This document shows positions 279 through 59,106 of a stretch of DNA of 64,000 nt, in pieces. Origin of the DNA: Psychrilyobacter piezotolerans. Its GTDB lineage: Bacteria > Fusobacteriota > Fusobacteriia > Fusobacteriales > Fusobacteriaceae. The position numbers and the translations under genes are program-made. The notes beneath the pieces were generated by a model that had not been told where the DNA came from, searched no databases, and worked only from the letters and a program-made list of their open reading frames with translations. The stretch spans positions 1-64,000 of the forward strand of contig NZ_QUAJ01000022.1 in the NCBI RefSeq assembly GCF_003391055.1, in the 5' to 3' direction. The stretch's first letter is position 1. The number at the start of each line of letters is the position of its first letter.

Positions 279-664
279 GGATTTTTTTATTTTTTTATAA
301 AGTTTTTTTTATTTTCATTTTTATTCAACTCCAAGGTCAACACACACAAAACACGATTTTCTTTAATTTCATTGACTTCCAACCGATAAAACACATCTAT
401 TCCCAACAATAAAAAAATCAAAAAAAAAATTTTCACTTCTCCTTCTAAACTGTACGGATAATTCATAAATTACCCCTCGTAAATTCAAAACCTTTATTTT
501 GGTCACGGATTACACAGATTTTTAAAACCTCATTTTCACATATTTATTTTTGACGCTGACTAAGGTCTGACAGATATACGAGCATTAAAAATTTTCATAC
601 TTAAAGAAAAAAGTTAAATGTATTAATCCTTTTTAATTTGTGCAAACTGCGATAAAAGCAAAAT
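279..664. other. Intergenic stretch without genes, repeat fragments
   Basis: This lies between the rRNA promoter and the terminator of the Crp/Fnr gene. It holds a copy of the dispersed acacagat family (ggtcacggattacacagatt, 501-520). It also holds a fragment near 550-570 (gacgctgactaaggtctgac) that resembles bases flanking the 55-bp repeat at 29048-29067. I see no convincing coding sequence. Confidence 0.6.
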
Positions 665-11116: not shown

Positions 11117-11128
11117 CAAAGAAAATTT

Positions 11129-11302
11129 AACCACGAATTACACGAATCGACGTAAAAACTCAGTGGTCACAGAGATAGAGAATAAAAAGAGATATACCGA
11201 AAAATACTCTGTGAACCTCTGTGTTCAAAAATGTTTTGAATTTAATTATAAATTCTTAATTATCAATTGTTAATTCGGCTAAAAGCCGTTATGGGGGATT
11301 TT
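11129..11302 (+). repeat. Intergenic repeat module with hairpin and ribosome-binding site, before etfB
   Basis: The left end is a dispersed-family copy (accacgaattacacgaat, 11130-11147). An AT-rich stretch with ttaattatcaattgttaatt follows, then a hairpin CGGCT-AAA-AGCCG (11276-11288), then ttatggggga directly before the etfB start. The same order (hairpin with a three-base RAA loop, then a G-rich ribosome-binding site) occurs before gshF, murG and the gene at 50136, with different stem bases. Confidence 0.65.
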
Positions 11303-19033: not shown

Positions 19034-19096
19034 GTATTTTCCTCCTCGTTTACTTTATATATCGCTTGGTATAATAACCAGCTAAACACTTTCCTC

Positions 19097-19159
19097 GACA
19101 TGCCTTTTGATTACTCCGAATTTTCACCCAAAAGTATCGCCTCTACAGGTCAACATGTC
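19097..19159 (-). ncRNA. Structured leader RNA upstream of rpsM (candidate ribosomal-protein leader)
   Basis: On the minus strand the space between rpmJ and rpsM contains an outer stem GACATG / CATGTC (19154-19159 with 19097-19102). An inner stem CTTTTG / CAAAAG (19129-19134 with 19104-19109) sits just inside it. The S4 protein is known to repress rpsM operons through leaders at this same place in E. coli and other groups. The fold here is seen by eye only, and the binder is inference. Confidence 0.55.
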
Positions 19160-19197
19160 TTTACAGTACGCGTTTTTCAAATGTGTGTTGCTTTCAA

Positions 19198-24335: not shown

Positions 24336-24643
24336 ACAAATAAAGTAAATGGCACACGGATACTAAAGTATACACAGATTTAAAAGAAGTAAAATCAGAT
24401 AAAAATCCAAGAAGACAATTAATCACAAAGAAAAGAGGAGTACCGAACCCTCTCTTTTGTTCTCCCCCTTTAATAAAGGGGGAGATGCTCAAAGAGTAGA
24501 AGGGGTTCTTTGTGCTGAAAAATATCTATGTAAATCAGATTTTAAAATTTGTGTAATTCGTGGTAAAGAAAAGGTTTTAAATTTAATCATTCATTATTCA
24601 TTTTCAACTATTCATTGGGCTGAAAGCCGTCAGGGGGATATAT
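24336..24643 (+). repeat. Repeat-filled gap before gshF: 70-bp element copy 2 and hairpin/RBS module
   Basis: This gap has three parts. First, 24442-24511 is the second copy of the 70-bp palindromic element (small hairpin CTC-AAA-GAG in place of TGTCC-AAA-GGACA). Second, a dispersed-family copy (aatttgtgtaattcgtggt) lies at 24546-24563. Third, an AT-rich run (attcattattcatt) leads to a hairpin GGCT-GAA-AGCC (24618-24628) and the ribosome-binding site cagggggata directly before the gshF start. No gene is seen here. Confidence 0.7.
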
Positions 24644-28920: not shown

Positions 28921-29642
28921 TTACACCACAACCTTTTTTTCTTTTTGTCACGAATTTATAAAATCAAAACCTTCCAACGCAGAGTTTTAGAGATCACAAA
29001 GGTTCTCAGAGTTGAATCTTTTCTTCTTGGTTTTAAACCCTATCTTTGACGCAGACTAAAATCTGACTTTATTTTTGGACTTTCACTTGAAGTTTATAGT
29101 CGTTCTACTTCAGCAGTACTGTTCCTACAATGACAATCGTGACAGAGGTTATTGCTTCGGCTTCTCTATTTAAGAGAAACCATAACGAGGAAGCTCAAGA
29201 ATTTTCTTGAACTTTTCTATCACTTTTTTTTGACTTTAATCCTTTTTCTAGGTGTTACCCTACTTCACAGTAGATTTTCTACTAAGTCGTCCAACAGAAT
29301 AAGTTCCACAGTGAAACGAGGACTGTAGCTGTAAAAAGACGTAAATCACCTCTGACTTACCCCTATAACATCATTTAGAAAAAGTCTGCTTTTCTTTGGT
29401 TCGTTTCTTTTTCAGATAAAAAGTAAATGAATCCGTATTAAAGATGGAATCTTTAGAACCTTTTTTTGACGCAGATTACACAGATGAACACAAAATTAAA
29501 TTCAAAATATTTTTTACCGCTAATATTCACTAATGCTCACGAATAAAACCTTTGTTTTTAGGTTTTAACCAAAATAATTTCATATCTTTTTTCGCATACA
29601 TTTGCGTCATTCGTGGTACATTTTTGATCTTAATTTTCAATT
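28921..29642. repeat. Large gap with 55-bp repeat copy B and dispersed repeats
   Basis: This 740-base gap within the pilus locus shows no gene. It holds gacgcagactaaaatctgac (29048-29067), then the 55-bp core repeat in plus orientation (29089-29143; gaagtttatagtcg to atcgtgac). A hairpin ttctct / agagaa is near 29160. A dispersed-family copy (gcagattacacagat, 29471-29485) and gcgtcattcgtggtac near 29605 follow. The density of repeats marks a region where sequence has been inserted between operon parts. Confidence 0.65.
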
Positions 29643-34306: not shown

Positions 34307-37300
34307 TTATTCACTACTCTTATCCACGCTGCTTTCCAGTTCAAATTTATCACTGGTTCCTTCACCAATGATCTTTAACTTACTCTCTCTTTGTTTGAGT
34401 TCATCTTCTATAGTGGCTTTAACACCCAGAGATTCTGTAGGTATAAAATAGGCTTTCTCAAAGATTTTTTCATGTCCCAGTCTATCCCAGACCGTAATTA
34501 TTAAATCTCCTCTGGATCCCTCTGTAAATAACGAAGTATCTATATCAATATTATTACTTGTTATAGATCCACCCTGTACCGTGGTGAAGCTGTTCCCGTT
34601 AAGATCATCTTCTCCACCTTGCTGCACAACCTTTCCTCCTACAACAAAATCATAGTTATATCCGTCTATTCCTACTAATTCTTCCAAATCAGATAGATCT
34701 ATATTTATATGTCCCCCTGTCAAACTTCCGATGATCCCGCCTTCCAGGTAGGAAGTATTTATCCTTGTATCCACAATAAATTTAAACTCCATTTCATCTC
34801 CTGGTACTCCTGATACACTTATAGGGGTAATCACAGCAATATTCGTAGTATCGGTACCAAACTTTGTACCATTGCTGCCGTCTATTTTGATTTCACTTGT
34901 CTCCCCCAAGATATCAAGTAATGGATCTATAGTTCCATTTTTATCTATTTTTAAATACCTTACATCTGCACCTGTTCCACTGATCTCAGCATAGATCATG
35001 GGATCACTTATTAAAGATCCTGCTCCTCCCTTGGTGAATTCATAGCCCCCTGATGAAAGACCGCTGTCTCCAGTTCTTTGGGTAGTTGTATTGTCCCAAT
35101 CTTTTACCCCCTCGTAGACTTTCAATATTACGGCTTTTGGCTTATTGTTATTCAAGACAATAATTTCTTCTTGTTCCCTTTGATTTCCAGCTTTATCTTC
35201 ACCTTTTATATTAAAATCTATATCTGTTTCAGTCGTACCAGAGTCATTGATTGTAAATGTATAAGTCACAGTATAGGTATCTGCTAATCCTGTTTCAGCA
35301 GGTGAAGCTATCTCACTACTTAAATTATCCACGCTATATCCTTTTAGATCCAATAGATATCCACCTTTGATACCACTTACAATCTCTTTATCATGCATGT
35401 TAAAATCTTTGATATCGTAGGAAATTTCTACCTTATCCCCATCCTTTACATAGGTTGTACCACTGCTATTTACACTATTTACCCCGTATACATCCATAAA
35501 TGTCCTGTTTATTATCGATACATTTGATATCACCGGCTCTACTGTATCTACCATAATAGTAGTTTGACTCAGTGGGGAACTGGCATAGTTTGTATCCAAT
35601 ATCTTATCAAAATCATCGTCTGAATAGTCGCTGATATCTATTAATTTCCCGCTCTTACTCATCCCAAAGATCTTACCTATATATTCTCCGTCTGTTTTAT
35701 GAGTACTATCTATCTCAATTTCAAATTCAGTCTCTTTTATCCCGCCTGTATAAAGCCCATTCTCTGAATGATGGTATGTCGGCACTCCATCTTTGTTATC
35801 CGACTTAGTATTATCATATTTAAAAGCTGCTATTCCAGCACGATACATATTTCCAATTCCAGTTAAAGTAATATTATAATCGGAGTTTACATAGTATTTG
35901 CCGTCTGATGGATGAGCATTTATAGGATTATCACTAATATCCGTCATTGTCCTGCCAGGTACGATATCTGTCATATTGATATTTAATATACTTATATTTT
36001 GATCCCCTGTGTTTCCATACCTGTCCTCTATAGTATTTTCAATCCCTATGGTACCTGATGCTCCTCCTACTTCTACCCCTGGCCAGCTAAGTTTGAATCT
36101 TTTCTCCCCATTAGGACCATCGGGTTCTGGATCGATATCAGGCACCCTCCATCCCAACTCGTCTATACCGATATAGATATCATCTTCAGTTAAATTTTTA
36201 TCTTCAATTATCAGAGTAATATCCAGCAGGTCCCCTTTCTTCACATAACTTCCAACATTACTCAGGAGGTCTTCCAGCTCCGATTCATTGGCTGCTGAAT
36301 ACCCGGAATAATTTTCAGCTTCTGTATTTGTAAATACTTGCGTATCCTCAAGTACTTTCATTGATTTTAAAAATGCTCTCAACGTTGTATCTATTACCCT
36401 TATTTCCACTATCTTTGGAGGTATTACATCTATTGCTACATCTTCTAAAATCTTAGTCTGAGTAAACAGGTCGGTAACTGCTGTAGCTTCCAGATCAATA
36501 TACTCTATAGGGTTTCCGTTTAACTCTGCATCCCTCAATATCTGCATCTCTGTCTCTGTTAAAACTACATTAAATTCATACCAACCCTGCTGGCCAAAGT
36601 CTTCAAAATTAGCCGAATCTCCATCTATAGCTTCCAGCTTTGTTTTACTTATCTTGAGTTCTATATCTTCCCCATCAGTACTTGTCAGGAGTTCCTTTAG
36701 ATCCAGGTCACCCAATTTTATCCTATATCTGGTCCCATCTAATTTCTCAAAATCATCACTTGATATTCCAGAAAATAAGTCCGGGTCGCTGGAGCTATTT
36801 TTCAGTTCATACCATGCATCGGATCTGTCTCCCATCAAACCTTTAAAATATTCCTCATCTACCCGTGCAGGAGAGCCGGCTATTACCAGGTTAAAATAAG
36901 GTACTGCCGGATTATCTCCCAGATCATGAGCTATCAATCCATCCACCTCTGATTTTTTTAACCACATCTCATAGTTGTTTGAACCATCTACCCTGTATTT
37001 CACCTTATCGATATAACTGAGTATCTCTTTTACAGGATCTGTTCCTATGGGAAGATTTTCTACTCCTACCCAGGATTCTGCCCTGTTATCTAATATTGTT
37101 TCTAGATTTACCACAGTTATTTTAAGAGGTGACCATCCGTCTTCCGATAAACTCATAGTTATATCATCTGTAGTTCTGCTGAATAACAGAGTCCCGTCGG
37201 TTTTTAATACATTCAAGCTGCGTTCCTTGATAACATCTTCTATTATTATAGTTTCCCCGCTGCTGTTCATCTCATGATATCTGGATTTAGCCAAGAATGT

Positions 37301-40300
37301 TATAACTCCCCTTCCATCCACTATACTTAGTTTAGGAGAAGTCCCGGTAGGATCTTTAAACTCTACAACTAATTTTTCTTCCTGTACCGCATATTGTTTA
37401 TCCTGGTATTCGTCTAAATCTCTGATTGTTTTGGATATTGGCGTTCCATCTTTTCCCTTTACATCTATTAATTTAAAATCAACAGTCCTGGTAGTACCGT
37501 CATATTCATTGAATGGAGTAAGGTAGGAAAGTTCCCATCTCTGGATGATTCCTATATTACTGATTGCACTTTGAAGAGCATCTCCTACATGTTCCCCGCT
37601 AGATCCCATCTCATACATGAAGAAGTTGTTTCCTGTATTGTAATATTTAAAATCCGTATGATAGACATTTCCGGTATCTGATGGATCTATCCCTAAGATA
37701 GGAATTTCTCTATCATCCCACTCCTCCCAATAATTATTATTTTTGTTTTTTCCCCATGAATATTTATAACCTAGATCTGGGACTCCTTCCTCTTCATATT
37801 TAGTTAACTCCGTATTTGCACTATCAGCTGTATTTCCTCTTCTTCTTACATGGAATAATCCGGTTAAATTGATGTTATCAGCCATCCCGTTATGAGTGCT
37901 GTTTAATTTAGCGTATAATTTTTGCAGCACATCTCCCGAGTTATATCCCAGACTACCGATATTATCTGTATCCATATTTTCATCGGTCAAGAATATTATC
38001 ATTTTCTGGGACGGCATATACCCGCTGCTGCTGTCATCTGTTATTTCCCCTGAATAATCCAAATACCTGCCATTGGCACGGAGTTTCTCTATGGCATAAT
38101 GGAGTCCCCAGGCACTATTTTCCTGCCCTCTATAATATCCAGAACTTGCCCTTATATTATTAAAAGCGTCGATTAGTTCATCTTTTTCTTTTTCTCTCCT
38201 ATTTTCAGGATTAACTCCTCCCAGTGTCAACCCATCAAACCATTTTTCCTTATAAATAGCCATATAATGAGAAGTTCCTCCCCACCACGAATTTCTAACA
38301 TCAAGATATTGATCTACCTTAGTTGACCAATTTCTAATCGTATTTGAAGTTTGTTCTGGTCCAAAGGTAATTAAATTATATTTAACATCAAATCCCCTGT
38401 CATAGAGTTCCTGCCCAAAAGCTGATAATCCATCCTTTACTGCATCTATTTCATTTTGCATAGACCCCGAATTATCTATTACAAATACCACATCTAAAGG
38501 AAATAAGAATCTCTTTTGATTCGATTCCCTCAGACTTATCTGACCAATGTCTCCTACTCCCTCTGATTCTCCTGTCCCCTCGTTTTTTTCCGATAGTTTG
38601 AAAGCTGGCAGACCAACAGATTGAAGGTTGGAAGTTGTTAAATTTATCTCTCTTTCCATCTTGGTAATAAAGTTTACATTTACCTGGATAGCTCCACTGC
38701 TGGTACCGGTAGTTATAAAATCGATCTTATGTATATTATTTTCCTTGTCAAATTCCTCACTGGCTATCTCTGGTATATCCATGGCAAAGGTGTCATAATT
38801 TTCATAGGTGATCACCTTATAAGTCCCGTCATGACCTCTTTTTACCGTATAAAGCTGCACTGCATATTTTCCTATAGACAAGCCTATCAATCTCAGATTT
38901 TTATTAGCAGCTTCATACGAGATTACTGCATTTGAGAATGTTATCTCCTTATCTGAACCGGCATCCATCACTAGATCTATATAGTTTTCTTCATTTGTGC
39001 CGCCATCTGGATTACCGAATAAAAATGCTTCTAACCTTAAGTTTCCATCTGTTGTTTCATCTAAGTAATTTATAGGGTTAGCGTTATCATATGGATTCCA
39101 GTAATATTTAGGTAATTCTGCTGTATGTTCATCTTCTCCCACCATATAGCTGACATTTTCTGTAATAACTCCATCTTCAGGCACCTTGATAATTCTAAAC
39201 ATAACTTTATCGTAGTTTAATATTACCCCATTTGTATTTGTTGGTCCCTCAGTCCAGTTGTATACAACTTTGTCTCCTCCCTCTTCCACTTTGTTCAGGC
39301 CGTGTCCCACATCATCTGTATAGAATAAGATGCTCTCTCCATCTTCATCTGTCAGCTCAGCTGCAGCTTCCGAAATAACTTTTTCCGCCATTATCCCTTC
39401 TACACCTTCATCCACCAGATAGCTCCAGTTATTATTTTCAAATTTAAATTCATTTATATTTTTATAGTTCCCGCCTAATAGATATTCTCCCAAGGTCGAC
39501 CCATAATCTATAGATTTCATCTGACGGTATCCCAGTCTGGCCGGTATCAAGATCCTGTCTGTCATTTTATAATTTTGATCTTTTAGTTCATAGTTTATTA
39601 GATTCCCCGAACCATCCTTTCTTTCAAAGATCACCCTTTGGTGGGGATACCTTTCATCTTTTACTACCGGAGCCGGCTCAATGTATATTCCAATTTGTCT
39701 ATTTAGCGGGATATCAGTTCCCTCTATATCAAAGGAAACTACCCTTTTTTTCCCCTCCTCCTGGGTAAAACCGCTATCATAGATGCCTGTCCACCTGTAC
39801 ACATATTTTTTTTCATCTACTATTAAATCTTCACTTACTACAGAATAATTAATAGTTCCTATAGTTATCTTATCATCCGCTACAGTATATACTGTTCCTG
39901 CTATTGTTACTTTCGTATTGATAACCGGATATTTTACTCCGCTTACTTCTACATACTCACTATACGTTGTACTCCCTACCACTATCTGATTATTTGTGAC
40001 CTTATAGGTGGTTCCCCCTATATTTATACTGGATCCGCTGAGACCTGCAGGAGCATCTATAACTATATCCGAAACTGTATTTACAGCTATCTCCCTTTTC
40101 TCACTTATATCCTTTAACTTTATCTGGGATAAATCATCATTGGTTAGAGTGATTACATTTAAACCTATATTTTTATAATTGGATATATCTATATCTTCCA
40201 GCCATCCTGTATTCCCTTGGATAGAGCTTTGATTTTTCCCATTAAAAGTCAAACTGCTTTCATAGGTAGCTACCACATAGTTTCCTGTATTGTTATTGTT

Positions 40301-41071
40301 TCTATATCTCAGGGTATACAGGTCTAAATTATAAGATTTTCCATCTTCTAATCCCATAAGTTCAAACTTGCCATCTATAAATTTACCTGTAATCCCACTT
40401 TTTTCCATTGTCTGTACAGTTCCATTATTTTCAAAAATAAAATCTATATAATTAATATTTCCATTTAAAAATTCAGATAAATTATCTCCAGTTTCTATTT
40501 TTTTTATAGGACGAATTCCATCATGTTTTGCTCCTGTATAGAGTCTGTATACTACCTCTTGATATTTATAGGCTATGAGGTGCTCCAGCCGGTATTCGTC
40601 ATCGTAAAGAAAAGTATTTTTAGATTTTTCCAATTCTTCTTCTCTAAAATTACTTGTAGGAGCAGGTATGGTATAGTTTTCATCTATCAACCTTTTATAT
40701 ATCAGAATATCCCCGCTTTCATCCGTTTGAGTCAGATTAAAATCAGCTTCTTTGGGTATTCCTGTGTTTTTGTTTAGATTAAACTTCACCATAGATCTAG
40801 GAACGCCATTATAATCATGCCGTTCATTTTCTATTCTAGTAAATACTGTCTCATCATAGGCGGTGCCGGAGTTTAAAAAATTTTCCAAATTTATATCCCC
40901 TGTTTCAACTGAGAATACAGACTCCTCCCCATCTAGATTAAATCTATCTACGATATATTGGTCCGTTACCACTAAATTATCCTTTGTTATCTGTGAATAT
41001 ATATATTGATCACTTGAAAACACCGTGATACTTAGGAGTAAAAATAATGCCCACACTTGAAAACTCTTCAT
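34307..41071 (-). CDS. Giant secreted protein with von Willebrand A domain, 2254 residues
   Basis: An N-terminal signal peptide (FQVWALFLLLSITVFSS) starts this 2254-residue protein. A von Willebrand A domain begins near residue 857 with the MIDAS motif DNSGS (Asp866), after an N-terminal half rich in beta-type modules, some repeated (xYxVxxxxIxxxxxxYxYRWxG). The second half continues with beta-rich modules and ends in a module (about 2100-2254) shared with the two neighbours. There is no autotransporter barrel, no LPXTG and no membrane segment near the C-terminus. The MIDAS motif points to metal-dependent ligand binding, as in adhesins. Its genes lie upstream of the filament genes, so it may be secreted by, or sit on, that filament. 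Its target is unknown. Confidence 0.85.
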   Translation of the reverse strand: MKSFQVWALFLLLSITVFSSDQYIYSQITKDNLVVTDQYIVDRFNLDGEESVFSVETGDINLENFLNSGTAYDETVFTRIENERHDYNGVPRSMVKFNLNKNTGIPKEADFNLTQTDESGDILIYKRLIDENYTIPAPTSNFREEELEKSKNTFLYDDEYRLEHLIAYKYQEVVYRLYTGAKHDGIRPIKKIETGDNLSEFLNGNINYIDFIFENNGTVQTMEKSGITGKFIDGKFELMGLEDGKSYNLDLYTLRYRNNNNTGNYVVATYESSLTFNGKNQSSIQGNTGWLEDIDISNYKNIGLNVITLTNDDLSQIKLKDISEKREIAVNTVSDIVIDAPAGLSGSSINIGGTTYKVTNNQIVVGSTTYSEYVEVSGVKYPVINTKVTIAGTVYTVADDKITIGTINYSVVSEDLIVDEKKYVYRWTGIYDSGFTQEEGKKRVVSFDIEGTDIPLNRQIGIYIEPAPVVKDERYPHQRVIFERKDGSGNLINYELKDQNYKMTDRILIPARLGYRQMKSIDYGSTLGEYLLGGNYKNINEFKFENNNWSYLVDEGVEGIMAEKVISEAAAELTDEDGESILFYTDDVGHGLNKVEEGGDKVVYNWTEGPTNTNGVILNYDKVMFRIIKVPEDGVITENVSYMVGEDEHTAELPKYYWNPYDNANPINYLDETTDGNLRLEAFLFGNPDGGTNEENYIDLVMDAGSDKEITFSNAVISYEAANKNLRLIGLSIGKYAVQLYTVKRGHDGTYKVITYENYDTFAMDIPEIASEEFDKENNIHKIDFITTGTSSGAIQVNVNFITKMEREINLTTSNLQSVGLPAFKLSEKNEGTGESEGVGDIGQISLRESNQKRFLFPLDVVFVIDNSGSMQNEIDAVKDGLSAFGQELYDRGFDVKYNLITFGPEQTSNTIRNWSTKVDQYLDVRNSWWGGTSHYMAIYKEKWFDGLTLGGVNPENRREKEKDELIDAFNNIRASSGYYRGQENSAWGLHYAIEKLRANGRYLDYSGEITDDSSSGYMPSQKMIIFLTDENMDTDNIGSLGYNSGDVLQKLYAKLNSTHNGMADNINLTGLFHVRRRGNTADSANTELTKYEEEGVPDLGYKYSWGKNKNNNYWEEWDDREIPILGIDPSDTGNVYHTDFKYYNTGNNFFMYEMGSSGEHVGDALQSAISNIGIIQRWELSYLTPFNEYDGTTRTVDFKLIDVKGKDGTPISKTIRDLDEYQDKQYAVQEEKLVVEFKDPTGTSPKLSIVDGRGVITFLAKSRYHEMNSSGETIIIEDVIKERSLNVLKTDGTLLFSRTTDDITMSLSEDGWSPLKITVVNLETILDNRAESWVGVENLPIGTDPVKEILSYIDKVKYRVDGSNNYEMWLKKSEVDGLIAHDLGDNPAVPYFNLVIAGSPARVDEEYFKGLMGDRSDAWYELKNSSSDPDLFSGISSDDFEKLDGTRYRIKLGDLDLKELLTSTDGEDIELKISKTKLEAIDGDSANFEDFGQQGWYEFNVVLTETEMQILRDAELNGNPIEYIDLEATAVTDLFTQTKILEDVAIDVIPPKIVEIRVIDTTLRAFLKSMKVLEDTQVFTNTEAENYSGYSAANESELEDLLSNVGSYVKKGDLLDITLIIEDKNLTEDDIYIGIDELGWRVPDIDPEPDGPNGEKRFKLSWPGVEVGGASGTIGIENTIEDRYGNTGDQNISILNINMTDIVPGRTMTDISDNPINAHPSDGKYYVNSDYNITLTGIGNMYRAGIAAFKYDNTKSDNKDGVPTYHHSENGLYTGGIKETEFEIEIDSTHKTDGEYIGKIFGMSKSGKLIDISDYSDDDFDKILDTNYASSPLSQTTIMVDTVEPVISNVSIINRTFMDVYGVNSVNSSGTTYVKDGDKVEISYDIKDFNMHDKEIVSGIKGGYLLDLKGYSVDNLSSEIASPAETGLADTYTVTYTFTINDSGTTETDIDFNIKGEDKAGNQREQEEIIVLNNNKPKAVILKVYEGVKDWDNTTTQRTGDSGLSSGGYEFTKGGAGSLISDPMIYAEISGTGADVRYLKIDKNGTIDPLLDILGETSEIKIDGSNGTKFGTDTTNIAVITPISVSGVPGDEMEFKFIVDTRINTSYLEGGIIGSLTGGHINIDLSDLEELVGIDGYNYDFVVGGKVVQQGGEDDLNGNSFTTVQGGSITSNNIDIDTSLFTEGSRGDLIITVWDRLGHEKIFEKAYFIPTESLGVKATIEDELKQRESKLKIIGEGTSDKFELESSVDKSSE

Positions 41072-42692: not shown

Positions 42693-45600
42693 TTAACTTC
42701 TACTTACAGTAGTTTCTTTTTCCTCCTCTGAACTTACGCTTGCACCGGTTTCTTCCTCTGAACTTCCGTCTACATTGCTCTCTACTTCAAATTTATCGCC
42801 GCTTCCCTCTGCCAGTATCGTTATTTTACTGTTCCTCTGCTTCGTTTCACCACTTACTTTTGCTATTATTCCACTAGGTTTTGTAGGAATAAAATAAGTT
42901 TTTCTAAAGTCTTTTTTATGCCCTAGTTTATCATAGACTGAAAAGAGTAAAGTTCCTTTCGATCCGCCTATGAATCCAGAAGTCTCAATTGTTATAATTC
43001 CACTTATAGACCCTTTTGTAGGAGTAGTAAATGATGTTCCTTTTAAATTTCTTTTGGTAATTTTTTCAGATTTTTTTCCTTCTACAGTAAAAACATATTC
43101 ATATCCTTCCACGCCAGACAATTCTTCTATCCTAGAAAGATCTACCTCAACATTTTTACCATTTAAGCTGCCTATTATTTCATTATCTAAATAAGAAGTA
43201 TTTATCTTGGTATCTACTATAAAATTCAGCATTTTAGATTTTCCTTCTATCCCAGCTTTACTTATTGGGGTTACCCTGACTATATTTTTCCCTTCTCTAG
43301 AAAAATTAAATTTTATCTCAATATTCTCTGATCCTCCCGGTAAATCTAATGTTTTTTTAGCTACAGGATTTTCGTTTTCATTTAACTTTTCAATTTTTAA
43401 TTTAGTTATTTCAGTATCGTCATCTGGACCTGTACTTTTAGGAACAACAGCATATATTGCCGGATCATTAATTAAAGAAATTGATCCCCCCTTTGTAAAG
43501 GTATATTCTCTGTCAGAATCTTTTATCTTTGTTTTTTTCCAATCACCCCAGCCCTGAACATCTTCATAAACTTTTAATTTTATATCCTTAGGTACTCTGA
43601 TTTTTACTTTTTCTTCTTTTCTATTTCCAGCTTTATCTTCTGCTGTTATTGTAATTTCTGTTATTAATCCATTTGAAGTCTCTGGTTTCTTTACTTTAAT
43701 CTTATACGTTACAGTTTTATCGCCACCGTAAACTGGTTCTTCCAAAATTTCTGTATTATCATTTTTTATTCCCAATAAATATCCACCTTTAATGCTATCC
43801 TCTAATTTTTCATAACTAGCATTGAAGTCTTCGATATCAAAAGATAGATTAAAGTAATAATAATTTTTTTCTGAAATTTCAGCTGATTCTTCTATCAATA
43901 TATTGGTGATTTTAGGAATTATTGTATCTACTATAACAGTTAAATTTTTAGGTCTTGAAATGTCCCCTAATAATATTTCATTAAATGTTCCATCATATCC
44001 CGTTATCTCATTTAATTTCCCGCTCTTACTCATTCCATAAACACTACCTATATACTGGCCATCGGTTGTATGTTTGTCTGTAGTATCTACCTCCATTGAA
44101 ATAGTATTACCCATTACTCCACCTGCGTATAACCCCTTACCGCTATCACTAACTCCTATCTTAGGATATTTTGGATTTCCCAAATTTCCATCACTATTTT
44201 TATCTGCGACCTCTTTATCGTACTCAAATAGAACTATTCCAGCCATACTCTTATCACTCTTAGGATTTATATTAATCGCACTATTAGAATTAATATAATA
44301 AGTTCCACCTATTTTATTTACAGAATTTCCCGCAGTTTTTACTTCTGGCTCTACACCTATACTCGTATTATCCACTTTTAAAACGTCTATACTTTGGTTT
44401 TTAGATATTCCATAGGAGTTCTTTACATCATTTACCAAAGTTATCTTATCGCCTTTTTCCACTCTATCGGTCCAAGTAACCTTGAATCTTTTTATATCAT
44501 TACCTGCGTCCGATATTTCTTCAACTGTTTTTCCTGTCCACCCCTCTACATCTATACCATTATAGACATCAAATTCATCTATGTTTTTTCCCTCTACAAT
44601 TGTTTCTAACTCTATTTCATCTCCGACCTTTCCTGTACTTCCAACTTCCGGCAAAGTAAAGTTCCCATCCACTTCATCAATATAGCCTGAATATTTTTCG
44701 GGGTTCTCTACACCTGTACCATCTAAATCTACCATGGTTTTTAAAAAATTCAATATAGTTTTATTCTTTAAATCCACATTTATAATCTTAGGAGTAGATA
44801 GATCCACCTTTACATCTTTCAGTATCCCTGTTTTGTTAAATAAATCGGTAACTATCCTTGCTTCTAAATTGATTTTTTCGGATGATTTTACAGCTTCTGA
44901 ATTTATTAATGCTTGCATCTCTTCCTCTGTTAAATCAACTTTAAATTCATACCACCCCTGGTCTCCAAAGGTATCTTCCAAGCTTTCCGTATCCGATAAT
45001 TCTTCCAGCTTGGTGTTACTAATTTTTAATTCTATCCCTTCCTCATTTCCACTAACTCCATTTAGTAAATTTTCTAATCCTAAATCTCTTAGTTTTATCC
45101 TGTATTCATTATCTTTAATTTTCTCAAAATCTTCATTTTTAATATCATCCAACAAATTGGAAGTTTTAGAAGTGTTTTTTAATTCATACCAGGTATCCGA
45201 TCTGTCCTTCATTAATTCTTCAAACTCTTTTTCATCAACTTCAATGTCATATCCTCCTACCTTTAATTTCAGATCACCTGTACTAAGTGTTTTTATTTTC
45301 TCTACCTCAGAAACCATTAACTCAATCTTATAGGTATTCTCTCCTTCTACCGTATATCTGACCTTATCTATATAACTCAAAATATCTTTCCCTGAGTTAT
45401 TTATAACTTCTACCCATGATTTTTCTCTTCCTTCTAAGATTTTAGAAATTCCATTTTTAGTAACTTTGGTTTCTAACCACCCATCATCAGATAAACTCAT
45501 AGTTATATTATCTGTATTTCTGCTAAATAATAATTTATTGCTGCTATCTAATACATCCAATTTATATTCATTTATCATGTCTTCTACCACTATTGGATGA

Positions 45601-48600
45601 TTATCTTCATCAAATTCATTGTATCTTGCCTTCCCTCTAAAAGTTATCGTTCCCCTACCGTCTGCTATGGATAACTTCAAGTTATCTACACTAGGGTCTT
45701 TAAATTCCAAGGCTAATTTTTCCTCTTTTACAGTGTACTGTTTATCTTCCTCTTCGTTTAAGTTGGTAATTTCTCCATCAATAGATTTTTCATCTCTTCC
45801 CTTAAGACCTACTAATTCAAAATCAACAGTTCTCGTCGTTCCGTCATATTCGTTGAACGGTGTCAGATAGGACAGATCCCATCTCTGGATAATTCCCAAA
45901 TTATTTATCGCACGATTTAATGCACCCTCTACACCGCTTCCATTATTTTTCATCTCATACATGAAAAAGTTGTTAGCGGTATTATAGTACTTAAAGTCAG
46001 TATGGGAGATTTCAGGTGGATCATTTCGATTCGATACATTTGATGTATCTTCTCCCAGTATGGGGATTTCATTGTCATCCCATTCTTCCCAATAATGAGC
46101 TCTTCCATCAGGTCGCCGTCTTCCAGTTGAATATTTGTATCCTAAACCTGGAACTTCATCATAAGTAGTTTTAGTATTATTTGCACCCGGTGCATCATTA
46201 CCTCTCTTTCTTACATGGAAAATACCATTTAAATCTATTACATCTGGCAGACCATTAAATTCTTCATCCGCTAACTCTTTAGATAATTCTTCCAATATAT
46301 TTTTATTTTCATAACCAGAAGGAAGATTATCTTCATCCATATCTTCATCGGTCAGGAAGATTATCATCTTTTCCGATGGCATATATGCCCCTTTTTCTCC
46401 TTTTTCTACTATCTCCCCAGAATAACTCAGATATCTTCCATTGGTACGTAGTTTTTCTATGGCGTAGTGGATCCCCCAGGCACTATTTTCCTGACCTCCA
46501 TAATATCCAGAAATAGAGTTTATTTCTTCAAAGGCATCTAGCAATTCTTCTAAATCATTTTCACGGGATGAAGTTTTATCCAAAGCAGCTCCGTCAAACC
46601 ACTTATCTTTATAAATAGCCATATAACTATAATCATAATACTCTGCTATTTTATTTTTCCAGTCCCCTGTAGGAACAACATAGTTCCCCCAGTCTTCATA
46701 AGTTCGATTCTGTTGGGGACCAAAGGTAATCAGATTATATTTCACATCAAATCCCCTGTCATAGAGTTCCTGTCCGAAGGCTGACAGCCCGTCTTTTACG
46801 TTATTTATCTCATTTTGCATGGAACCAGAGTTATCTATGACAAAGACTACATCCAGCGGGAATAGGAACTTTTTCATCCCTGATTCCTTCAAGCTTATAT
46901 TTCCAGCCTCTCCAATTCCCTCTATTTTTCCTGTCCCCTCATTTTTTTCTTCGATTTTAAATTTACCAGATTTTAGATTATCAACTGTTAAGTCTATCTC
47001 CCTCTCCATCTTGGTAATAAAGTTTACATTTACCTGGATAGCTCCACCGCTGGTACCAGTAGTTATAAAATCTATCTTATGAATATTCTTTTCCTTCTCA
47101 AAATCCAGACTGGCAATGTCCGACACATCCATCTTAAATTCCCTCTGATTTTCCCGGGTAATAACTTTATATCTGCCGTCATGCCCCCTTTTTACACTAT
47201 AAAATTGAATGGTATAATTGTCTACCGGAAGACCAACTATTCGGAGTTCTTTATTGGTCTGTTCATATGAAATTATGGCGTTAGTAAAGGTCATAGTTTT
47301 ACTGGTACTGGCATCCAGTACTATATCCACATAATTTGAGCTATATGTTTCATCATTAACATTTCCATACAAAAACTCTTCTAATTCTTTATTCCCCTCA
47401 ACTGTTGGCTCTATTAAATTTATAGAGTTACTATTCTCATAGGGATCCCAAGAATAATCTGCACCAGCACTTTTTTTAGTTATTCTAAAAATCACCTTAT
47501 CATAGTTTAATATCTCCCCGTTGGTATTTAGCGGCCCCTCATTCCATCTAAAGGTCGCTTTATTCCCTTTAGATTCACTAACTATTTTTTCTATTCCATC
47601 ACCTTTGTTATCCGTATAAAATAATAAAGTATTTTCATCTTCATCTTTTAAAGTTCCCTTAGATTCGGTTATGGTCTTTTCGATTATTAGACCTGCAGAA
47701 CTAATTTTTTCTGGAATTGGCTCCCTATAATTCCATACTCCATCACTGTAATCAAATTCATTTATTGCCTTATATCCATTTCTACCATATAAAACATCAT
47801 CCAAATTACTTTCATAATCTACAGTTTTTAGACGCCTATATCCTTTTCTTTCAGGGCTTAAAACCCTGTCTTCAATCTCATAATTTTGATCTTTAAATTC
47901 TTTTGCAGGATCAAACTCAAATATTACCCATTGATGGGAAGGGGTCTTATCTTCTTCTATTTTTGCAGGTTCAATATATTTACCTGTTAAAGATAATTTA
48001 GCAATATCATTTCCTAATACATCAAATTTAACTTCCCTTTCTACCCCACTTTTGTCATCAAAAATTGTTTTATATTCTGCTTTCCATCTATAGACATATC
48101 TTTTATTATTTGGATCTAATATTATCTGATTATCCTCATTTACTGTATAACTGTTACTGCCAATGTTTATAATTTTTCCAATTACAGGTATCGCTTGTAA
48201 AGTAAGAGGGGGATTCAAAACATTTTTAGTATCATTATTTCTCTTTTCTTTTAAATTTTCTAAATTTAATAGCGATAAATTATCAGTCGTTATACTTATC
48301 ATATTTAGTTGTATATTTTTATATCCAGATGTATCTATATCTTCCAACCAGATGGTATCATCTGTAGAAGCTATATTCTTCCCCTTAAATTTTCCAATAC
48401 TCCCCTCATAGGTTATAGCTGCATAGTTCCCCTTATTGTTGTTATTCCTATATCTCAGGGTATAAAAATCTAAATTATAATCAATACCATTTTCTAAACC
48501 CATAATTTCAAATTTTCCCTCTATAAACCTTCCCTTTATTCCATCTTTTTCTATCTCCTGTGCAGAGCCGTTATTTTCAAAAACAAAGTCTACATAACTA

Positions 48601-49634
48601 TTTTTTATATTATTTAAATCATTCTCTTCTATTCTTTTTATTGGACGTACTTCATCATGCTTAGACCCTGTATAGAGTCTAAACACCACTTCCTGGTATT
48701 TATAGGCTTTCAAATTTTCTAATTCATACTTATCTTTATAAGTAAATGTATTTTTAGATGATTCTAAATCCTCCTCCTCAAAATCAGTGATAGGAACAGG
48801 TATTGTATAACTTTCATTTATCTTTCTTTTGAAAACATTATTTTCTTCGATTGTCAGTTCAAATTTTCCATTTTTAGGTGTTTCCAAAGTTTCTTTCAGT
48901 TTAAATTCTACAATAGGCTTAGGAGTTCCAGCATAACTATATCTTTCTAACTCATCATGAGTAAAAACATCATCATCATAAGACTTATTATTAGTTAATA
49001 ACTCCTCTAAACTTCCATCTTCATCTATTGTTTTTATCCTATCTATATTTTCATAGAAATCAATTGTATACTTCTCTGAATTAACTAACGATCCCATTGT
49101 TATTTGTGAATAGATCCATTGCTCTCCAATCTTTGGACTAGGCTCTGCTTTAGTTGGTTCTGTATATTCTTCAGTTAAAACAAGCTTAGAATAACTACCT
49201 CCTACTTTAAAATATCTTTTTTCTTTAAAAGAAACTGTCCGCACTTCCCCTTCTTCTTCCAAAAAATTGCTATAATAACTTCCATTCCATTTATATACAA
49301 ATTGATCTTTTCTGTTTATCTGTATTTTATTGTTCGATACTTTATATTCATTTCCAGCGATAGTAACTTTATCCCCATTACTAAATCTAATTTTTTTAGT
49401 CTCTATAGGATCATAATTTTTTCTTACTCCATCTCTTACTTCCTTTACATTTAAAAGTTCTACCCGATTTAAATCCTTATCGGTAATACTGACTAAATTT
49501 ATCTTTATTTGATCGTAATTTTCTGAATCAATCCCCTCTATTGCGACTCTTTCATAGCTTAATGCAAAAACACTCATACTCACCAGCAAAAATAATACGA
49601 ATATCCTATAACTCTTTCTTATCATCTTCCCCAT
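42693..49634 (-). CDS. Giant secreted protein with von Willebrand A domain, 2313 residues
   Basis: This is a paralogue of the 2254-residue protein. It has a signal peptide (SYRIFVLFLLVSMSVFA) and a VWA domain with DNSGS (Asp934) near residue 925. It has two copies of an N-terminal module (about 15-140 and 440-560; compare VYKWNGSYYSNFLEEEG with VYRWKAEYKTIFDDKSG) where the other giant has one. The end is the shared C-terminal module (about 2139-2280) plus a Ser/Glu-rich tail. The VWA core FPLDVVFVIDNSGSMQNEI and the stretch GQENSAWG are almost identical in the two giants. The start at 49634 overlaps the coiled-coil gene by 29 bases and has GGAGG eight bases away. There are no cell-wall or barrel anchors. 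Confidence 0.85.
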   Translation of the reverse strand: MGKMIRKSYRIFVLFLLVSMSVFALSYERVAIEGIDSENYDQIKINLVSITDKDLNRVELLNVKEVRDGVRKNYDPIETKKIRFSNGDKVTIAGNEYKVSNNKIQINRKDQFVYKWNGSYYSNFLEEEGEVRTVSFKEKRYFKVGGSYSKLVLTEEYTEPTKAEPSPKIGEQWIYSQITMGSLVNSEKYTIDFYENIDRIKTIDEDGSLEELLTNNKSYDDDVFTHDELERYSYAGTPKPIVEFKLKETLETPKNGKFELTIEENNVFKRKINESYTIPVPITDFEEEDLESSKNTFTYKDKYELENLKAYKYQEVVFRLYTGSKHDEVRPIKRIEENDLNNIKNSYVDFVFENNGSAQEIEKDGIKGRFIEGKFEIMGLENGIDYNLDFYTLRYRNNNNKGNYAAITYEGSIGKFKGKNIASTDDTIWLEDIDTSGYKNIQLNMISITTDNLSLLNLENLKEKRNNDTKNVLNPPLTLQAIPVIGKIINIGSNSYTVNEDNQIILDPNNKRYVYRWKAEYKTIFDDKSGVEREVKFDVLGNDIAKLSLTGKYIEPAKIEEDKTPSHQWVIFEFDPAKEFKDQNYEIEDRVLSPERKGYRRLKTVDYESNLDDVLYGRNGYKAINEFDYSDGVWNYREPIPEKISSAGLIIEKTITESKGTLKDEDENTLLFYTDNKGDGIEKIVSESKGNKATFRWNEGPLNTNGEILNYDKVIFRITKKSAGADYSWDPYENSNSINLIEPTVEGNKELEEFLYGNVNDETYSSNYVDIVLDASTSKTMTFTNAIISYEQTNKELRIVGLPVDNYTIQFYSVKRGHDGRYKVITRENQREFKMDVSDIASLDFEKEKNIHKIDFITTGTSGGAIQVNVNFITKMEREIDLTVDNLKSGKFKIEEKNEGTGKIEGIGEAGNISLKESGMKKFLFPLDVVFVIDNSGSMQNEINNVKDGLSAFGQELYDRGFDVKYNLITFGPQQNRTYEDWGNYVVPTGDWKNKIAEYYDYSYMAIYKDKWFDGAALDKTSSRENDLEELLDAFEEINSISGYYGGQENSAWGIHYAIEKLRTNGRYLSYSGEIVEKGEKGAYMPSEKMIIFLTDEDMDEDNLPSGYENKNILEELSKELADEEFNGLPDVIDLNGIFHVRKRGNDAPGANNTKTTYDEVPGLGYKYSTGRRRPDGRAHYWEEWDDNEIPILGEDTSNVSNRNDPPEISHTDFKYYNTANNFFMYEMKNNGSGVEGALNRAINNLGIIQRWDLSYLTPFNEYDGTTRTVDFELVGLKGRDEKSIDGEITNLNEEEDKQYTVKEEKLALEFKDPSVDNLKLSIADGRGTITFRGKARYNEFDEDNHPIVVEDMINEYKLDVLDSSNKLLFSRNTDNITMSLSDDGWLETKVTKNGISKILEGREKSWVEVINNSGKDILSYIDKVRYTVEGENTYKIELMVSEVEKIKTLSTGDLKLKVGGYDIEVDEKEFEELMKDRSDTWYELKNTSKTSNLLDDIKNEDFEKIKDNEYRIKLRDLGLENLLNGVSGNEEGIELKISNTKLEELSDTESLEDTFGDQGWYEFKVDLTEEEMQALINSEAVKSSEKINLEARIVTDLFNKTGILKDVKVDLSTPKIINVDLKNKTILNFLKTMVDLDGTGVENPEKYSGYIDEVDGNFTLPEVGSTGKVGDEIELETIVEGKNIDEFDVYNGIDVEGWTGKTVEEISDAGNDIKRFKVTWTDRVEKGDKITLVNDVKNSYGISKNQSIDVLKVDNTSIGVEPEVKTAGNSVNKIGGTYYINSNSAININPKSDKSMAGIVLFEYDKEVADKNSDGNLGNPKYPKIGVSDSGKGLYAGGVMGNTISMEVDTTDKHTTDGQYIGSVYGMSKSGKLNEITGYDGTFNEILLGDISRPKNLTVIVDTIIPKITNILIEESAEISEKNYYYFNLSFDIEDFNASYEKLEDSIKGGYLLGIKNDNTEILEEPVYGGDKTVTYKIKVKKPETSNGLITEITITAEDKAGNRKEEKVKIRVPKDIKLKVYEDVQGWGDWKKTKIKDSDREYTFTKGGSISLINDPAIYAVVPKSTGPDDDTEITKLKIEKLNENENPVAKKTLDLPGGSENIEIKFNFSREGKNIVRVTPISKAGIEGKSKMLNFIVDTKINTSYLDNEIIGSLNGKNVEVDLSRIEELSGVEGYEYVFTVEGKKSEKITKRNLKGTSFTTPTKGSISGIITIETSGFIGGSKGTLLFSVYDKLGHKKDFRKTYFIPTKPSGIIAKVSGETKQRNSKITILAEGSGDKFEVESNVDGSSEEETGASVSSEEEKETTVSRS

Positions 49635-50136
49635 CTATATTTCCTCCCCCATTTAATTCCTTCTCTATCTTCTCTGCCTTATCAAATTCATCTGTGCTTC
49701 TGTATAGTTTATAAAGTCTTTCGTTTATTTTCCTAATTTCGGTTTCCGGTAACTTTCCCTTTAATTCTACCAATGCCGGGATACTGAACTCCCTGCTGTA
49801 TTTATACTTATCTATCTCCTCTAATAAGCCATCTAACTTTTCCGATCTTTTAACCTCGTCTATTTCAGATAAAATTTCTTTTTTTATCTCCTCCAAGGCT
49901 TTCTCTTCCTCTATTTCCTTCTCTTCCATCTCTTTTATCATAGCTTTGTTTCTTTTTACAGTTTCTTCCAATTCTTTTTTAGCTTCTTTTAAATCTTCCT
50001 GTAACTTCTTTTCTTTCTCTATCTTTATTATTTCTTCCCTGCTTTTTATTACCACTTCCTCTTTTTTCGGAAACAGTATAAATAATCCCAAGATTCCAAG
50101 CAGTATAGCTCCTAATATCAAATGTTTTTTTTTCAT
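49606..50136 (-). CDS. Membrane-anchored coiled-coil protein, 176 residues
   Basis: An N-terminal membrane segment (LILGAILLGILGLFILF) is followed by a long stretch of Glu- and Lys-rich heptads (about 30-110) that should form a coiled coil, and a helical end. It is the first gene of the giant-protein operon and overlaps the next by 29 bases, so both are co-translated. It is not a recognised family member. An inner-membrane or periplasm-spanning part of the filament system is a reasonable guess. The start is preceded by the hairpin/ribosome-binding-site module. Confidence 0.75.
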   Translation of the reverse strand: MKKKHLILGAILLGILGLFILFPKKEEVVIKSREEIIKIEKEKKLQEDLKEAKKELEETVKRNKAMIKEMEEKEIEEEKALEEIKKEILSEIDEVKRSEKLDGLLEEIDKYKYSREFSIPALVELKGKLPETEIRKINERLYKLYRSTDEFDKAEKIEKELNGGGNIDGEDDKKEL

Positions 50137-50610
50137 AATTCTCCCCCCTGTACGACCTTTGGTCGAATGTATAATTAATAATTAACAATGTATAATTACA
50201 TTCAAAATTTTTTTTGACACAGATCACTATAGAACACGGATGACGTAGATCTAATGGATTTTCACGGATCTCTTCTTTAGGTTTTAAAACCTAAAAATTT
50301 AAATTATCTGCGATAATCTGTATTTTATCTGTGTATGCTACAAGCATCCGCGTTCCATTTTTTCGTGATACATTTAAATTTCTTTATTAATTCACATTTA
50401 AAACCAAGTTTTTTTAGTACACTTAATTTTAATAATCGTGAACCGACTTTAATATTCGTATATCTTTTGCGTAATTCGTGACTAAGTTTTAATTATTAAG
50501 ACTCCTTTCAGACTATTTTCAATTATTCCCTGTCATTACACTTTTAATATTACACTATTTCCGGATATTTTACTATGATATATCGCCTTTGTTATCTTTT
50601 TTTCAGTTAC
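50137..50610 (-). repeat. Gap with hairpin/RBS module and dispersed repeats
   Basis: Next to the coiled-coil gene lies the module: hairpin CGACC-AAA-GGTCG (50153-50165 on the minus strand) followed by tacaggggggag and the start codon. AT-rich sequence (taattattaattatacatt) lies farther out. Beyond are dispersed-family pieces: gtcaaaa with cacagatcac near 50220 and tttgcgtaattcgtgac at 50466-50482. No gene is seen in this gap. The promoter of the giant-protein operon must lie here but I cannot place it. Confidence 0.65.
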
Positions 50611-59074: not shown

Positions 59075-59106
59075 CTATATCCCCCTGACGGCTTTCAGCC
59101 GAATGT
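59075..59106 (-). repeat. Hairpin and ribosome-binding-site module between murD and murG
   Basis: On the minus strand a hairpin CGGCT-GAA-AGCCG (59089-59101) is followed by tcagggggatatag and the murG start codon. The 21 bases before the start are nearly the same as before gshF. The hairpin could slow ribosomes or limit coupling between murD and murG. It may also be only a repeat that happens to supply the ribosome-binding site. Confidence 0.7.

Follow-up and report, generated by a model that had tools for sequence, protein, structure and literature searches.

In Psychrilyobacter piezotolerans and its relatives in the genus, a small hairpin lies directly upstream of the Shine-Dalgarno sequence (SD) of dozens of unrelated genes. 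Comparison of the sequences establishes its location, the pairing kept while the letters change, the excess of G-U over A-C pairs, the restriction to one genus and the gain of the hairpin before an existing SD. The RNA shape is thus under selection, and the hairpin probably helps the messages be translated or last. To a more specific reading, that it is a cis-acting, genus-wide leader hairpin insulating or protecting the SD, we give about even credence.

Stem-loops beside the SD are known gene by gene or as engineered parts. In Psychrilyobacter, a natural genus, one has been installed before dozens of genes, and its pairing has been kept during letter turnover. The orthologues with and without the hairpin, together with the stems caught mid-change via G-U, constitute a natural experiment on a hairpin beside the SD. 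The module would, moreover, illustrate the spread of a new cis-acting RNA part within a genome.

The hairpin module in the window and in the genus

Four copies are located in the window, which is the whole 64,000-nt stretch of P. piezotolerans DNA analysed (Table 1). The first-pass annotation had placed hairpins before etfB, gshF, murG and a coiled-coil gene, each followed by a G-rich ribosome-binding site and a start codon. Inspection of the sequence confirmed the positions, and GGGGGA or GGGGGGA followed by ATG is present at all four. The common layout is an AT-rich flank, a 5-bp stem with a 3-base loop, 3–4 bases, GGGGG(G)A, a short spacer and the ATG, which comes 14–16 nt past the hairpin in every window copy.

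An AT-rich stretch and a dispersed-repeat copy, reported upstream of three of the four, are indeed there, with 42 nt of heptads each. The exception is murG, whose hairpin sits between the stop of the upstream gene (59107) and the murG ATG (59074) with the repeat absent upstream. At etfB, the dispersed repeat is an insertion between the upstream gene (stop 11116) and etfB, seen in the P. piezotolerans genome only. The foot pair of the gshF hairpin, G.G, is unpaired and the four inner pairs are intact.

Table 1. Hairpins, SDs and AT-rich flanks of the four window copies
Feature	Position	Strand	Remark
AT-rich heptad stretch TTTTGAATTTAATTATAAATTCTTAATTATCAATTGTTAATT upstream of etfB hairpin	11234-11275	+	dispersed-repeat end
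Hairpin CGGCT-AAA-AGCCG before etfB	11276-11288	+	R1 match 11265-11299, 48.6 bits
SD GGGGGA of etfB, ATG 11303	11293-11298	+	also in hairpin-less relatives
AT-rich heptads, 42 nt, 5' of gshF hairpin	24575-24616	+	
Hairpin GGGCT-GAA-AGCCG before gshF	24617-24629	+	R1 45.9 bits
SD GGGGGA of gshF, ATG 24644	24633-24638	+	
SD GGGGGGA of coiled-coil gene, ATG 50136	50142-50148	-	
Hairpin CGACC-AAA-GGTCG before coiled-coil gene (ORF 49606-50136)	50153-50165	-	R1 44.5 bits
AT-rich heptads, 42 nt, 5' of coiled-coil gene hairpin	50166-50207	-	
SD GGGGGA of murG	59080-59085	-	
Hairpin CGGCT-GAA-AGCCG before murG	59089-59101	-	R1 48.7 bits

With model R1, a covariance model from seven copies, the four window copies score 44–49 bits and the next-best window match 9 bits. 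A 22-nt consensus matches the window twice, compared with 0 in 100 shuffles. By domain, etfB encodes an ETF protein, gshF a glutamate-cysteine ligase with an ATP-grasp domain and murG a glycosyltransferase 28, and the coiled-coil product of 176 aa is without a Pfam match. The coiled-coil gene overlaps the start of a giant ORF at 42693-49634 (-). For this ORF (2313 aa) and another at 34307-41071 (-) (2254 aa), the only matches are to von Willebrand A, and they are too weak to reach the curated cut-off. At locus L094 (G005:C191), the murG frame meets a stop after five codons with the hairpin and SD intact, likely from a frameshift or an assembly error.

The family is genome-wide, as the first-pass annotation had supposed, and extends well beyond the window copies. 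The P. piezotolerans genome gives 23 matches with R1 and, with model R2 from 21 copies, 31 at E<=0.4, rising to 34 at E<=10; the copy number of about 31 thus rests on covariance-model search. It amounts to about 1% of the genes, whose total is estimated at about 3,000. The downstream genes are mixed, including butyrate kinase (buk), 2,4-diaminopentanoate dehydrogenase, imidazolonepropionase, an FTCD_C cyclodeaminase, rubrerythrin, NAD kinase, Lon, HflK, SecD, a CobQ-like CbiA-domain protein, DeoD, malQ and a PTS transporter among others. The start codon follows directly after 87 of the 88 copies inspected genus-wide.

The module is restricted to the genus Psychrilyobacter. At E<=0.1, copies are found in seven of its eight genomes, namely that of P. 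piezotolerans and six of the seven others, several of which are incomplete assemblies, and the covariance-model search at the same threshold finds the module absent from 53 other genomes of the order. Over 98 Fusobacteriota genomes searched, the copies are confined to Psychrilyobacter with none in the other 90. A pattern scan of public genomes returned one Psychrilyobacter MAG and two Amycolatopsis matches, the latter read as chance in GC-rich DNA. An apparent hairpin peak before SDs in G024, a genome of another genus, was traced to rRNA-like repeats.

Literature searches turned up no described Fusobacteria leader hairpin, and the etfB module has no match to a curated Rfam covariance model at E<=1. 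The only Rfam match window-wide is the S4-Fusobacteriales ribosomal protein leader RF03133 at 19091-19166 (-), with 64.2 bits.

Pairing kept during letter turnover

The stems change their letters on both sides and stay paired. Among the model-found copies, both-sided changes occur at all five pairs and fill 79 cells versus 28.5 in shuffles. Because the copies come from one genus, they do not represent independent events, and the counts are of distinct sequences, not branches. The covariation score is 0.80 versus 0.33 in shuffles and at most 0.16 in slid-partner controls.

A paired covariance model favours paired matches, so model-free tests were made. A stem-free pattern of an AT flank, 14–18 free bases and GGGG hits 17 distinct genome sites, 10 of which have a hairpin in the same register. 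By protein homology, orthologous starts were gathered for 30 gene families, and 188 have a recognisable SD. A perfect hairpin, defined by 5 bp, at least two G-C pairs and an end 0–6 nt before the SD, is present at 52 of the 188, and 38 more have one non-Watson-Crick pair. The ordinary-gene controls are 2/298 in the P. piezotolerans genome and 1/289 in another genus.

Even the orthologues missed by the model have a perfect hairpin in 12 of 117. Read at the offset of the family members, 14 of 119 pair; the number is 2–5 for shifts of 1–3 bases, which reflect spacer indels, and 0 for all those of at least 5. Both the compensating stem changes claimed in the first-pass annotation and their excess over controls are thus borne out, by covariation as well as by the protein-homology and shifted-register tests.

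The turnover is visible within single gene families. The hflK stems are TAACC/GGTTA, CGACT/AGTCG, CGGCT/AGCCG and CAGTT/AGCTG by species, and the rubrerythrin orthologues have TGACT, TGACC, CGGCT and CAGCT. For murG, they are CGGCT, TCGCT, TGTGC and TGATT, and for dgkA, TGACC and TCGCC. One stem, TGACC/GGTCG, is a G-U intermediate between TGACC/GGTCA and CGACC/GGTCG.

Such intermediates are biased. At the 188 protein-homology starts, the single non-Watson-Crick pair is G-U in 19 and A-C in 4 distinct cases (binomial p ~0.001), and the numbers are 7 versus 1 in the orthologues missed by the model. A DNA palindrome would give G.T and A.C equally often, so the bias points to selection acting on RNA, not DNA. 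Hairpins of the family shape are found with an SD in 5 cases versus 0 in the reversed control, and those away from SDs show no excess (17 versus 16 in reversed sequence). Selection on an RNA hairpin, as the first-pass annotation claimed, is supported by the covariation, the model-free orthologue tests and the preference of G-U over A-C.

Order of arrival of the SD, the hairpin and the repeat

The first-pass annotation had suggested comparing orthologues with and without the module. At etfB, deoD and buk, this comparison does not support its conclusion that a repeat is supplying genes with ribosome-binding sites. The etfB hairpin occurs in P. piezotolerans only, where it closes a stretch of about 160 bp made up of dispersed repeat and heptads. 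Five hairpin-less relatives have an SD at the same place, GGGGGATTTTATG in four and GGAGGATTTTATG in G001. The deoD hairpin occurs in one species, and the hairpin-less relatives keep AGGAGGAAATAGAAG or GGGGGAAATAGAA; the buk hairpin occurs in three, and the hairpin-less relatives keep GGGGGG or GGGGG.

Since the same or a similar SD is already present in the hairpin-less relatives at these three genes, the SD predates the hairpin, which was placed in front of it later. At gshF, the ribosome-binding site differs between the species with and without the module, and it could have come along with the module.

The repeat and the hairpin are separable, because each occurs without the other. The hairpin is without the AT-rich repeat at murG, secD, hutI and, in two species, lon, and the repeat is without the hairpin at etfB in G003. 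In those two species, a minimal lon hairpin immediately follows the upstream stop codon. Of the other lon orthologues, one has the repeat inserted upstream of the hairpin and one has the repeat with the hairpin lost. Here the hairpin seems to predate the repeat. Overall, the copies appear to spread together with the AT-rich dispersed repeats and afterwards to be retained at orthologous genes because pairing is selected for.

Dispersed intergenic repeats at 11117-11233, 29430-29610 (-) and 440-560 (-) are rich in units of the CACGAATTACACGAAT / ATCTGTGTC type. Repeats of this type often terminate with AAAAnnTTTTGAATTTAATT, and some with AT heptads of 7 nt, in which AATT recurs at a spacing of 7. 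Their presence before SDs varies between species.

Possible roles of the hairpin

As a module, the hairpin is placed 1–3 nt upstream of the SD; copy by copy, the stem precedes the SD by a gap of 1–5 nt in 71 of 72. The third loop base is A in 71 of the 72 model-found copies, with loops GAA, AAA, GTA, ATA and similar. Stems and loops swap freely among the copies, and the size can vary as well, to 4-base loops and 7-bp stems. The shape therefore seems to matter more than the letters. The SD lies outside the stem, so the hairpin is not an on/off lid. The RNA thermometers and riboswitches that sequester the SD share a structured leader near it, whereas here the arms pair with each other.

Computed folding is less telling. 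The predicted hairpin pairing is high, with a median of 0.82 at 37 C. In silico, a scrambled 5' arm reduces the predicted SD accessibility from 0.57 to 0.48 (47 of 72 copies), a modest effect. For the coiled-coil gene and gshF copies, the hairpin is not predicted as the dominant fold in context, and the folding z-scores of the 91-nt leaders are unremarkable. The case for the hairpin is comparative, not energetic.

We propose that the shape of the hairpin, rather than its letters, would make it a small insulator and barrier. In keeping with this, most copies (26 of 31) have another gene upstream on the same strand. The hairpin would keep the upstream AT-rich, repeat-laden leader from engaging the SD, and would block ribonucleases or misplaced ribosomes coming from the 5' side. 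The downstream gene would thereby get its own dependable, protected initiation site. The hairpin is not essential, as about 1% of the genes have the module and many orthologues are without it.

In Cupriavidus necator, expression rose 1.5- to 3-fold when a stem-loop was placed immediately before the SD (PMC6146998), while single hairpins by themselves gave no translation increase in a T7/E. coli system (PMC11087576). One expression-enhancing 5'-leader element is the stem-loop of phage T7 gene 10, employed in C. necator (PMC6146998), and it has in common with the Psychrilyobacter hairpin a small stem-loop beside an AU-rich stretch. The defining position of such leaders, directly upstream of the SD, is that of the Psychrilyobacter hairpin as well. 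Unlike the T7 leader, the latter is natural, stands over dozens of unrelated chromosomal genes, covaries and is genus-specific, and it is known here from sequence.

The main rival to the insulator and barrier reading is that the hairpin is the site of a structure-recognising RNA-binding protein and its genes form a post-transcriptional regulon, which we consider unlikely but serious. The near-constant 5-bp and 3-nt geometry, the narrow spacing to the SD, the nearly constant third loop base, the limited recurring stems and the several catabolic genes (buk, etfB, hutI, ftcD, ord) would all suit such a reader. However, the orthologues found without the model have loops like ATT, TAT, GTG and AGG and stems unrelated in sequence, and the genes are functionally mixed (murG, nadK, secD, lon, hflK). 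CsrA/Rsm sites also combine a hairpin with a GGA-rich motif near the SD, but the GGA here lies outside the loop and the assembly has no PF02599, so CsrA is absent and CsrA-regulated leaders were rejected.

It is rather doubtful that a genus-specific RNA-binding protein or ribosome feature reads the hairpin by shape and governs dozens of unrelated genes together as a single translational regulon, which a repeat would have spread by placing the hairpin in front of SDs already there.

Unlikely as well is an RNA-processing or decay signal, either a roadblock to 5'-3' decay or an inter-cistron cleavage mark that separates the fates of neighbours. Its genomic setting is apt, with a same-strand gene preceding 26 of 31 copies, 21 of them within 150 nt, and selection at the RNA level agrees with it. 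Four copies, however, follow a divergent gene, and a processing site does not need the fixed closeness to the SD. A promoter with the transcript start at the hairpin was rejected on inspection, since the AT stretch would make a poor -10 element and a same-strand gene precedes most of the copies.

That the hairpin merely terminates a REP- or MITE-like DNA repeat, mobile or dispersed, which inserts before SDs by accident, its pairing coming from transposition or DNA hairpin repair, is very improbable. The same AT-rich heptads and dispersed repeats do often precede the hairpins, and the gains at etfB and deoD are species-specific. Against this, there is no hairpin excess away from SDs, hairpins occur without the repeat, orthologous sites are still paired although their flanks changed long ago, and G-U exceeds A-C, which is not expected from DNA-level repair.

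REP/REPIN elements (PMC3733652, PMC3116915) are likewise short palindromes dispersed between genes. Unlike them, the hairpin copies precede start codons rather than lying mainly downstream of genes, have no GTAG/CGTC tag at the palindrome foot, are flanked on the 5' side by AT-rich sequence (consensus AATTATnAATT) and vary in stem letters from copy to copy. A REP/RAYT origin was rejected because the assembly has no match to PF01797 (Y1/RAYT transposase), with control genomes positive. Finally, chance resemblance or an artefact of the covariance model preferring pairs, in which matches are enriched for pairing by construction, is refuted by the hairpins in the protein-homology orthologues and the stem-free pattern and by the shifted-register control.

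Some orthologues, such as feoB (G000, G003) and cobQ (G004), in which the small hairpin is absent or broken, have a different, longer palindrome of the GGGGTAATTCATAAATTGCCC type at its place. This is compatible with the idea that any hairpin may do the job.

A second dispersed palindrome, of the GGGGTAATTCATGAATTACCCC type, is found just 5' of SDs at 448-475 (-) in the window and at L036, L125, L129, L130, L294, L315 and L325. Some of the orthologues with a broken or absent small hairpin have it. Other hairpins directly 5' of SDs, at L154 near 1497 (-) and L153 (G000:C7), have the cores TCGGAACTTCCGA and TTCGGAAGTCCCGAA and are possibly a second small family.
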